DNA of 64,000 bases. It comes from Usitatibacter palustris. Lineage in GTDB: Bacteria > Pseudomonadota > Gammaproteobacteria > Burkholderiales > Usitatibacteraceae. The first letter of the stretch is position 1. Every line of letters starts with the position of its first letter. Positions 54,010 to 62,293 of this stretch are shown here, piece by piece. Where the stretch lies: contig NZ_CP053073.1 in NCBI RefSeq assembly GCF_013003985.1, positions 744,001-808,000 of the forward strand, in the 5' to 3' direction. Below the pieces are notes generated by a model that did not search any database, was not told the origin of the DNA, and saw only the letters and a program-made list of their open reading frames with translations. Both the position numbers and the translations under genes were made by a program.

Positions 54010-54494
54010 AAGCCATCCGGGCCGTGGTGGCGCTGGGCTCGAATCTCGAGGACCCCGCGGCCCAAGTCCGCACCGCCTTCGACGAGATCGGCTCGATTCC
54101 AGGAACGAAAGTGCTCAAGCGTTCCGCACTCTTTCGCACCGCGCCCGTCGGCTTTCTCGATCAAGACCCGTTCATCAACGCCTGCGCACTGGTCGAGACG
54201 ACGCTCGCGCCCAAGGCCCTGCTCGATGCGCTGCTCGCCATCGAACGCTTGCATGGCCGCGTGCGCGAGATCCCGAACGGTCCGCGCACGCTCGACCTCG
54301 ACATCGTTCTCTACGGCGGGATCGCGCACCATGAGCACGGCCTGACCATTCCGCATCCGCGCGCCGGCGAACGTGCGTTCGTCCTGGCGCCGCTCGTGGA
54401 TGTCTGGCCCGACGCGGAAATTCCGGGGCAGGGCCGCGCGGCAGAACTTCTCGGCCGCGTGCGCGACCAGGCGATCGAGAAGCTCGCCGCATGA
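54006..54494 (+). CDS. folK: 2-amino-4-hydroxy-6-hydroxymethyldihydropteridine pyrophosphokinase
   Basis: A 162-residue enzyme that transfers pyrophosphate from ATP to the pterin in folate synthesis. Visible are VALGSNLEDP at the start, LFRTAPVGFLDQDPFINAC, and the hallmark GPRTLDLDIVLYGG. The TTG start overlaps the pcnB stop (TTGA). The pcnB-folK order is standard in proteobacteria; here a deoxynucleoside kinase lies between folK and panB. Confidence 0.94.
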   Translation: MKAIRAVVALGSNLEDPAAQVRTAFDEIGSIPGTKVLKRSALFRTAPVGFLDQDPFINACALVETTLAPKALLDALLAIERLHGRVREIPNGPRTLDLDIVLYGGIAHHEHGLTIPHPRAGERAFVLAPLVDVWPDAEIPGQGRAAELLGRVRDQAIEKLAA

Positions 54495-55123
54495 AGCATC
54501 GCTACATCGTCGTCGAGGGGCCGATCGGCTGCGGCAAGACGAGCCTCGCGCACAAGATCGCGCACCACCTCGATGCCTCGCTGCTCCTCGAGGACACGGC
54601 CTCGAACCCCTTCCTGCGCCAGTTCTACCAGGACATGCGCCGCCACGCGCTGCCCACGCAGCTCTTCTTCCTGTTCCAGCGCGTCGAGCAGATCGGCAGC
54701 CTTCGCCAGCCCGAGCTCTTCGGCGCGAAACCCACGGTCTCTGATTTCACGCTCGCCAAGGACCCGCTCTTCGCGCGCCTCACGCTCAACGACGCCGAAT
54801 ACCAGCTCTACTCGCGCATCTACGACCACGTGAAACCGCAGGTGCCCGTACCCGACCTCGTGATCTACCTCCAGGCCTCGATCGACACGCTGATCGGCCG
54901 CGTGAACAAGCGCGGCCTCGCGATGGAGTCGGGCATCTCCGAGGATTACCTGCGGCGCATCTCGGATGCCTACTCGCGCTACTTCTACGACTACGACGAA
55001 AGCCCGCTGCTGATCGTCAACAGCGACCGCCTCAATTTCGTCGACGTTCCCGAGCACTTCGACCTGCTCGTCGAGCGCATGAACGCCATTCGCGGCGGCC
55101 GCGAATTCTTTAACCGGGCGTAA
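54491..55123 (+). CDS. deoxynucleoside kinase family protein
   Basis: A 210-residue kinase of the dNK/dGK-dAK type. The P-loop is EGPIGCGKTSLA, with the glutamate after it in LLEDT, the DFTLAKDPLFARLTL segment in the place of the substrate motif, and the R-rich lid (GRVNKRG). The family phosphorylates deoxynucleosides for salvage; a bifunctional folK-dgk neighbourhood is common in betaproteobacteria. The ATG overlaps the folK stop. The stop codon TAA falls inside the first arm of the large palindrome, so the gene ends at the edge of that element. Confidence 0.85.
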   Translation: MKHRYIVVEGPIGCGKTSLAHKIAHHLDASLLLEDTASNPFLRQFYQDMRRHALPTQLFFLFQRVEQIGSLRQPELFGAKPTVSDFTLAKDPLFARLTLNDAEYQLYSRIYDHVKPQVPVPDLVIYLQASIDTLIGRVNKRGLAMESGISEDYLRRISDAYSRYFYDYDESPLLIVNSDRLNFVDVPEHFDLLVERMNAIRGGREFFNRA

Positions 55124-55226
55124 TAAGTGGGGTCAGACTCGACTTAAGTTAGTTCTGTGGATAACTGGAGCCGGACCCAGTTATCCACAGAACTAACTTA
55201 AGTCGAGTCTGACCCCACTTATTACG
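55119..55226. repeat. perfect palindrome, two 50-bp arms and an 8-base spacer
   Basis: The left arm (55119-55168) and right arm (55177-55226) are exact reverse complements over 50 bases, separated by AGCCGGAC. The arms begin with CGTAATAAGTGGGGTCAGAC, read on either strand from outside. The element fills nearly all the gap between the deoxynucleoside kinase and panB. It carries no reading frame. Its outer part is a GGGGTCAGACTC-type repeat that I recall from other proteobacterial genomes. It could form a cruciform or a very long RNA hairpin. No transposase is nearby. Confidence 0.95.
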
Positions 55227-55249
55227 ATTTCCTCTAGAATTCGCCTCCC

Positions 55250-56041
55250 ATGCGAAACACCATCTCCCAGCTCCAGGAACGCGCCCGCAACGGCGAGAAG
55301 CTCGCGATGCTCACGTGCTACGACGCGAGCTTCGCCGCGCTCTCCGACGCCGCCGGCGTGGACATCCTGCTCATCGGCGATTCCCTGGGCATGGTGATCC
55401 AGGGCCACGACTCGACGCTGCCGGTCACCATGGACCAGGTCGAATACCACGTGGCCTGCGTCGCCCGGGGAAGCGAAAAGGCTTTCGTCCTCGCGGACCT
55501 TCCCTTCGGCGCCTTCCAGGAATCGAAGGAGCAGGCGTTCCGCAACTCGGCGCGCCTCATGGCCGCGGGTGCCAACATGGTGAAGCTCGAAGGCGGCGCG
55601 GTGATGGTCGAGACGACGCGCTTCCTCGTCGATCGCGGCATTCCCGTGTGCGCGCACATCGGCCTCACGCCGCAATCGGTGAATGTCTTCGGCGGCTACA
55701 AGGTGCAGGGCAAGACCGACACCTCGGCCGACCAGCTCGTGAAGGACGCGAAGGCGCTCGAAGCCGCCGGCGCGGGAATCGTGCTGATGGAAGCGATGCC
55801 CGCCGGTGTGGCCAAGCGAGTGACCGAAGCCGTCAAGGTTCCGACGATCGGCATCGGCGCAGGCATCGATGTTTCCGGCCAGGTGCTCGTGCTGCACGAC
55901 ATGCTCGACATCTATCCGGGGCGCAAGGCGCGCTTCGTGAAGAACTTCATGCTCGGCGCGCCTTCGGTGAAGGCCGCGATCGAGGCCTATGTGAAGGCCG
56001 TGAAGGCCAAGACCTTCCCGGGTCCCGAACACTCCTTCTAG
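55250..56041 (+). CDS. panB: 3-methyl-2-oxobutanoate hydroxymethyltransferase
   Basis: A 263-residue ketopantoate hydroxymethyltransferase, the first committed step of pantothenate synthesis. Seen are the metal-binding [47 protein letters not shown], and [15 protein letters not shown]. The large palindrome ends 23 bases upstream of the ATG. panC follows after four bases and panD 47 bases after panC. No strong ribosome-binding site is visible before the ATG. Confidence 0.96.
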
Positions 56042-56045
56042 TCTC

Positions 56046-56876
56046 TTGGACGTCCTCCACACCGTCGCGGAATTGCGCGATCGCCTGCGTGGCGAGCGCG
56101 CGGTCGTGCTCGTTCCGACGATGGGCGGGCTGCACGAGGGCCACGTCTCGCTCGTGAAGGAAGCGCGCAAGCACGGGGACTGCGTCGTTACTTCCGTATT
56201 CGTGAACCGCCTGCAGTTCGAGCCCGGCGGCGACTTCGACCGCTATCCGCGCACGCTCGAAAACGATTGCCGCATGCTCGAGGCCGCCGGATGCGACGTG
56301 GTCTTCGCGCCCGACGAGAGGCAGATGTATCCGGAGCCGCAGGAGATGGTCGTGATGCCGCCCAAGGTGGCCGCGACGCTCGAAGGTGAATTCCGCCCGG
56401 GGCATTTCCAGGGGGTCGCGACGGTGGTGGCCAAACTCTTCAATATTGTTGCGCCGCACACAGCGATTTTCGGGCTCAAGGACTTCCAGCAATGCCACGT
56501 CGTGCGGGCCCTGGAGAAGCAGCTCAACTTCGGAATCCGCATCGTCGGCGCGCCCACGATCCGCGATCCCGACGGCCTCGCGATGTCCTCCCGGAACGCC
56601 TATCTCACTCGGGAAGAGCGGGCCCAGGCGGCGGCCCTCCAGCAAAACCTCAGGCGGATCAAGGCCCTGGTGGAAGGCGGCCGGCGCGATTACGACGCGC
56701 TGGTACAAGGGGTCGTGAGCGACTTGACCGCGGCCGGGTGGCGCGTGGATTATGTTGCGGTGCGGAATCGATCGGCGCTGGCTGTTCCGGGGCCTGGCGA
56801 CAAGGATCTCGTGATCCTCGCGGCGGCTTGGCTGGGCAAGACGCGTCTCATCGACAATCTAGAGGCCGATCTCTAA
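56046..56876 (+). CDS. panC: pantothenate synthetase
   Basis: A 276-residue pantoate-beta-alanine ligase. The adenylate-forming motif is [17 protein letters not shown] (HIGH-like), followed by [46 protein letters not shown] and the KMSKS-like [13 protein letters not shown]. The start is TTG at 56046, four bases after the panB stop. A G replaces the common A in PTMGAL. Confidence 0.96.
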
Positions 56877-62248: not shown

Positions 62249-62293
62249 AAAAGGGGACAGTCCCCATTTCGGAAAAGGGGACTGTCCCCTTTT
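62249..62293. repeat. two inverted AAAAGGGGACAGTCCCC units
   Basis: The first unit (62249-62265) and its exact reverse complement (62277-62293) are 11 bases apart, and each unit is itself nearly palindromic. Both lie between phoX and the convergent LytTR gene, and each can act as a terminator. The unit also occurs at 25488-25507, also next to a stop codon. Confidence 0.85.

Follow-up and report, generated by a model that had tools for sequence, protein, structure and literature searches.

Among described mobile elements, the closest to the palindrome examined in this study are the TIRYTs, in which a RAYT-like gene is flanked by long inverted repeats carrying the motif GGGGWSAS; these repeats form moderately abundant dispersed families with many dimers (PMC3733652). 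REPs of the GTAG type are reported there to be a frequent source of stop codons (Di Nocera et al. 2013, PMC3733652). The enzymes of TnpAY1 subclass 2.1 carry DnaA-C-like or other HTH domains, with all 20 TIRYTs of the subclass having one of three such domains, and the available part of that paper notes no likeness of the repeats to DnaA boxes (PMC6006769). In addition, a DnaA binding site has been described in the ends of Tn5, with binding reported (PMC3347997), and so has template switching at inverted repeats, by which one arm is copied from the other (PMC8794818, PMC8604942).

The current study examined a 64,000-nucleotide stretch (the window) of the Usitatibacter palustris genome, corresponding to positions 744001-808000 of a genome consisting of one contig of 3,958,808 bases (G000; contig coordinates are prefixed C1). 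Within the window, a long palindrome lies between the genes dgk and panB. This palindrome is a member of a dispersed family whose arms match the ends of a resident transposase element, and it was very likely inserted at the dgk stop codon by the transposase acting in trans.

The palindrome at the dgk stop codon

An inverted-repeat search placed the left arm (50 nt, forward strand) at 55119..55168, the spacer or loop (8 nt, forward strand) at 55169..55176, and the right arm (50 nt, reverse strand) at 55177..55226. The arms are 100% complementary, confirming the perfect 108-base palindrome (50 + 8 + 50) described by the first-pass annotation, and no inverted pair found within 200 bp elsewhere in the 64-kb window is longer, the next being 33 nt at 73%. 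Alignment of 16 copies places the boundaries of the palindromic element proper at 55122..55223 (102 bp, AATAAG...CTTATT, no strand assigned); the outer CGT/ACG of the 108-base palindrome are additional paired flank bases outside it. The deoxynucleoside kinase gene dgk (54491..55123, forward strand), an open reading frame with a GPIGCGKT motif, ends within the left arm, as had also been annotated: its TAA stop (55121..55123, forward strand) has its T outside the element, while the AA are the first two bases of the element terminus AATAAG. The tip motif TGGGGTCAGACTC, which fits the GGGGWSAS consensus as excerpted from PMC3733652, was located by motif comparison at 55128..55140 (forward strand) and 55205..55217 (reverse strand), and the exact DnaA-box sequence TTATCCACA occurs in the left arm at 55156..55164 (reverse strand) and in the right arm at 55181..55189 (forward strand). 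The open reading frame of panB (55250..56041, forward strand) starts 23 bases past the last paired base and is followed by panC (56046..56876, forward strand, TTG start), named from a reading of its translation; dgk, panB, and panC all lie on the same strand in that order. A dgk-panBC transcript would carry a 50-bp hairpin between cistrons, and the RNA fold predicted for 55110-55250 has an energy of -98 kcal/mol, versus -32.8 kcal/mol (sd 4.2) in 200 shuffles. The dgk-panB junction has no T run and is absent from the two sites scored by the terminator scan, no promoter was scored there, and an Rfam search of the palindrome returned nothing at the gathering score, the best hits being weak microRNA matches on the long hairpin.

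Matches to the palindrome were found in three of the 61 genomes searched (G000 itself, G002, and G004), all belonging to one genus. G004, which is assembled as one contig, has dispersed palindromes that share the GGGGTCAGAC tip, and the stretches fetched contained 33 tip-paired palindromes from G004 and 5 from G002. Of 28 genomes in the bacterial family, 23 yielded panB, and the dgk-panB site was read in the 13 relatives with a close panB, leaving out more distant ones. In 10 of these 13, dgk adjoins panB (in G003 as judged by eye, the motif search having missed its dgk), and all 10 lack the palindrome. Three of the 10 have other palindromes overlapping the dgk stop or starting within 22 nt of it: one with 33-nt arms that overlaps the stop in G012 (in a stretch containing N), one of 34 nt lying 2 nt past the stop in G018, and one of 55 nt lying 22 nt past it in G016. 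The remaining seven showed no palindrome at the dgk-panB junction by eye. Another copy in G000, L003, has no counterpart in G020 and G010, whose two gene matches at that junction are 25 and 30 bp apart. G002 and G001 carry inverted repeats there that are unrelated to it, 61 nt long in the former (L163:1839-2010, CACGGAG type) and 80 nt long in the latter (L165:1278-1503, AACGCAG type). At the junction of copy L005, the left gene was matched only in G002 and the right neighbour is unconserved. Since the dgk and L003 junctions hold other palindromes in relatives, gene ends are re-used by unrelated palindromes. The first-pass annotation had suggested looking for an empty site in related strains; the absence of the element at dgk-panB is clear in 10 of 10 relatives, but DNA matches in relatives are only about 63-72% identical, and therefore no base-exact empty site was obtained.

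The dispersed family and its resident transposase element

Searching G000 with the palindrome identified 16 full or nearly full copies, including the one at dgk-panB, together with two half copies, which answers the annotation's call for a count of related arms. Its argument that such a palindrome is not kept by chance is also borne out, among other reasons because of these 15 further copies. The family elements are approximately 102 bp long, with the two most distant copies at 82% and 79% identity, and have in common AATAAG-TGGGGTCAGACTC tips (near variants in three copies) and about 45 nt of arm, while the short loop varies. The sequence GGGGTCAG is present at both ends of all 16 palindromes and of the transposase element, and the family includes arm versions with TTATCCACA and with TTATCCCCA. 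A literature search with the letters GGGGTCAGA gave no title on bacterial repeats among the matches listed, and the family was not found in the excerpted literature naming TIRYT or TIRtron, which was searched by those names and not by organism.

Several other repeats were also observed. The loops of the L003 and L008 palindromes (C1:930720 and 1005560) read TGGGGTCAGGCTC, a degenerate third copy of the tip. At L017:1854-2016 (C1:1438353-1438515) lies a 163-bp palindrome whose outer 29 nt are 93% like the family and whose inner arm is unrelated and also paired. Mini palindromes with the core TGGGGTCAGACCCCA occur at L019, L020, and L027-L032, several of them beside stop codons as judged by eye, with composite forms at L024:2785-2855 and L026. 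Four inverted TTTTTCACA pairs, 67-83 bp from start to start (C1:2549315/2549386, 2742053/2742120, 2960076/2960143, and 3727699/3727782), possibly represent another palindromic repeat family.

A transposase-gene element spanning C1:1608549-1609387 has the two half copies (C1:1608549-1608595 and 1609345-1609387) as its ends. They form 44-nt inverted arms, 95% complementary and 753 nt apart, around an open reading frame of 247 amino acids with the motifs MTNHFHLL and YIELNP. This product scored 49 bits against Pfam Y1_Tnp (cut-off 23) and 67.2 bits against NF047646, the REP-associated tyrosine transposase model, under that model's cut-off of 80. By eye, it has the NHFH, WQ, and YIELNP motifs of TnpAY1 subclass 2.1 and a length near the 238-aa median of that subclass; Pfam gave only Y1_Tnp at E values up to 1, with no HTH-like C-terminal domain. 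The first-pass suggestion that the palindrome might be an orphan repeat is not upheld, as its arms match the ends of this resident element. The two other Y1 genes of G000 also have their own GGGG-type inverted ends, and a double hairpin of GGGGACAGTCCCC type at 62249-62293 of the window resembles the ends of the second of these genes (C1:2734584, L025). Inverted ends with GGGGTCAG were counted, from the arm sequences, in 21 of 36 related transposase loci of public genomes, where some of the genes are partial.

In 14 copies the inner arm reads GATAACTG (one or both arms having a further G), with GACAACTG on a single side of one of these; in the other 2 copies it reads GATAAGTCG or differs from that by one base. 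The left end of the transposase element reads GATAACCGG and the right end GATAAGTCA. By a typing based on roughly 6 bases, each of the 16 copies has two inner arms of a single type (14 left-end-like and 2 right-end-like), and none of the 16 mixes left-type and right-type arms. Judged from these letters, the palindromic unit is probably a single transposon end doubled in inverted orientation, and not an internally deleted transposon.

Given 16 similar copies, with arms matching those that flank a transposase gene, the palindrome is likely a small mobile repeat, and probably a non-autonomous, REPIN-like repeat of the TIRYT/TIRtron kind, moved in trans. Action of Y1 transposases on a folded single strand is known for IS200/IS605 and has been proposed for REP elements. 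The resident Y1 transposase would act on such a folded strand, and the AATAA ends would supply a stop codon, making a landing at a gene end harmless. The family of 16, the transposase gene with 44-nt inverted ends, the absence of the palindrome in relatives, and the paired arm changes in G000 all match this explanation so far. Long palindromes are hard to sequence, and the first-pass annotation had raised the concern of an assembly artefact; the probability that the palindrome is such an artefact or a sequencing error is negligible, however, because the 16 copies differ in their flanks and arms within a single contig, and related palindromes are also dispersed through G004, another one-contig genome. 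It is also quite improbable that the palindrome is an ordinary internally deleted transposon (a classical MITE) with one left and one right parental end: while the terminal 44 nt are common to the palindromes and the transposase-gene element, all 16 copies are single-type in their inner arms on those 6 or so bases, and no target duplication was seen by eye. A simple internal deletion would not be expected to yield copies in which the two end types are never mixed.

Arm pairing, gene-end placement, and DnaA boxes

Arms were compared in G000 over 15 copies of 43 nt, leaving out L004, the right end of which is rearranged. The two arms within a copy differ at 2 of 645 sites, whereas the mean difference between arms of different copies is 2.32 of 43 (approximately 5%), which indicates that the arms change in pairs in this genome. 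Eight of the 10 variable arm columns are symmetric in every copy, and copy-specific changes were found on both arms in seven cases (two of them in the dgk-panB copy) and on one arm in two. Beyond the element, the G000 flanks pair at 38 matched bases versus a permutation mean of 16.9 (P = 5e-5; P = 0.002 without the two innermost flank bases). In G004, 30 of the 33 palindromes were compared, leaving out two with another tip and the composite L161. Arm differences there are mostly one-sided (8 asymmetric, and 2 symmetric at the terminal base) and amount to 0.27 of 32 within a copy and 0.38 of 32 between copies; these differences do not support arm correction as a general rule. Flank pairing, seen in G000, was not significant in the 30 G004 palindromes (34 versus 28.4, P = 0.10) and was rejected as a general rule. 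The first-pass annotation had proposed either recent insertion or active maintenance, and this is largely right. Insertion is supported by the dispersed family, the absence in relatives, and the concerted change of the arms in G000, a change that is not clearly seen in G004.

There are several potential explanations for the perfection of the arms: probably, either one arm is copied from the other within the hairpin (template switching) or transposition requires the arms to match. The arms may have been copied from each other, or it is possible that only matched arms transpose and that the G000 copies derive from several matched sources; we lean towards arm copying before or during transposition. 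Selection for pairing combined with ordinary compensatory mutation, and not copying between arms, could also keep the arms equal, and this has a considerable, though somewhat less than even, chance of being correct. Such changes are called common in REPINs in the excerpts of PMC3116915, and the private changes in G004 are one-sided; however, G000 already has seven private changes on both arms and only two on one arm, and its flanks pair above expectation, although insertion into small palindromes could also produce such flank pairing. The paired arm changes and flank pairing could reveal whether copying corrects the arms.

Gene context was determined with a crude codon-score gene finder of our own for 17 elements in G000 (the 16 copies and the 163-bp L017 palindrome) and 31 in G004. 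Of these 48 elements, 27 lie between convergent genes, 21 between co-directional genes, and none between divergent genes. Neighbouring 3' gene ends lie at most 6 nt from the element edge in 23 of 26 cases in G000 and 41 of 49 in G004, and 10 and 19 of these close ends, respectively, use the TAA of AATAA as their stop. The gene finder misses some such cases: when read by eye, the gene on the right side of L003 ends at the TAA of the element and not 291 nt away. As a control, 12 of 62 gaps in the window are convergent, 9 of those 12 measuring at most 3 bp, and 156 of 4361 intergenic positions are no more than 6 nt from a 3' end (522 of 4727 when the last 6 nt of genes are added). The stop-codon placement is partly explained because convergent genes in a compact genome already abut, and it may reflect either target choice or selection. 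The palindromes might instead be kept as 3'-end hairpins serving the host (mRNA end protection, an RNase III site, or a terminator), with their mobility in the past. The gene-end positions (27 of 48 convergent versus 12 of 62 window gaps), the RNA fold of -98 kcal/mol, and the unrelated palindromes at the same junctions in other species would all suit such a role, but it is rather unlikely given that there is no T run and no scored intrinsic terminator, that the family occurs in only 3 of 61 genomes, and that the dgk-panB copy sits within a co-directional gene row.

Exact TTATCCACA occurs 27 times in G000, compared to 3 occurrences of its backward control pattern; 22 of the 27 are in the palindrome family (two each in 10 palindromes and the transposase element), and the other 5 lie outside it, including one that is 84 bases short of the end of the contig, which begins with dnaA. 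The looser pattern TTWTNCACA has 52 sites versus 33 for its control, and the family's share of boxes is therefore smaller by that measure. Exact boxes number 11 in G002, 9 in G004, and 32 in G006, a genome with no match to the dgk-panB palindrome, so the 27 in G000 are not extreme and only their placement is odd. The DnaA box is changed in 6 of the 16 G000 copies, exact TTATCCACA was absent from the G004 palindromes printed, and it was also absent from the 400 nt before and 500 nt after the 36 related transposase genes (less where the contig ended). None of the three resident transposases of G000 gave a DnaA-C match in Pfam. A DnaA role for the family is unproven, because of the 6 changed boxes, the lack of boxes in the G004 elements, and the relative that has 32 boxes anyway. 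It is very unlikely that DnaA would bind the paired boxes of 10 of the 16 palindromes and of the transposase element, coupling transposition to replication and making the family the main exact-box DnaA sponge. If DnaA does bind them, so many exact boxes would connect a mobile repeat with the control of replication; the HTH domains (partly DnaA-C-like) described for this enzyme class raise the same question.

Comparison with known systems

The transposase of Tn5 belongs to a different class. The G000 element resembles the Tn5 outside end as excerpted (PMC3347997) in being a transposon end with a DnaA site, binding being reported for Tn5 and the G000 boxes being recognised by their letters. Template-switch mutation, in the excerpts of PMC8794818 and PMC8604942, likewise involves copying of one arm from the other with stems kept perfect or lengthened, a process that is proposed only, by analogy, for G000. 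The G000 family is like the REPINs associated with RAYTs (Bertels and Rainey 2011, PMC3116915, as excerpted) in forming an inverted-pair hairpin that is dispersed, tied to a Y1 enzyme, and subject to paired arm changes, but it differs in having no GTAG-type REP unit, in its 16 copies, and in its longer perfect arms. It has a hairpin and a transposase link, though its units differ from canonical REPs, and it would work in the manner of a REPIN. Canonical REPs (GTAG/CGTC) were rejected as a description, as there is no GT[AG]G or CGTC foot tag and the ends are AATAAG or near variants.

The resident enzyme resembles TnpAY1 subclass 2.1 (Quentin et al. 2018, PMC6006769) in its NHFH, WQ, and YIELNP motifs and its near-median length; however, members are given an HTH-like C-terminal domain in the available part of that paper, and Pfam found none in the G000 enzyme. 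The system as a whole may serve as a compact test bed for palindromes spread by Y1 enzymes, since it combines a full-length enzyme gene and the ends around it with 16 copies that vary in their arms, and a second genome of the genus has a set of its own. As in a TIRYT or TIRtron, a Y1 HUH gene has long TIRs with GGGGWSAS, and these TIRs recur elsewhere as the 16 palindromes. In the excerpted accounts, the TIRYT/TIRtron is likewise a RAYT-like gene with long GGGGWSAS inverted repeats and dispersed dimers, while the G000 dimer differs in being a near-perfect palindrome down to a short loop, with arms that hold the DnaA-box sequence. The element family belongs to a kind already described: TIRYT-linked palindromic repeats.
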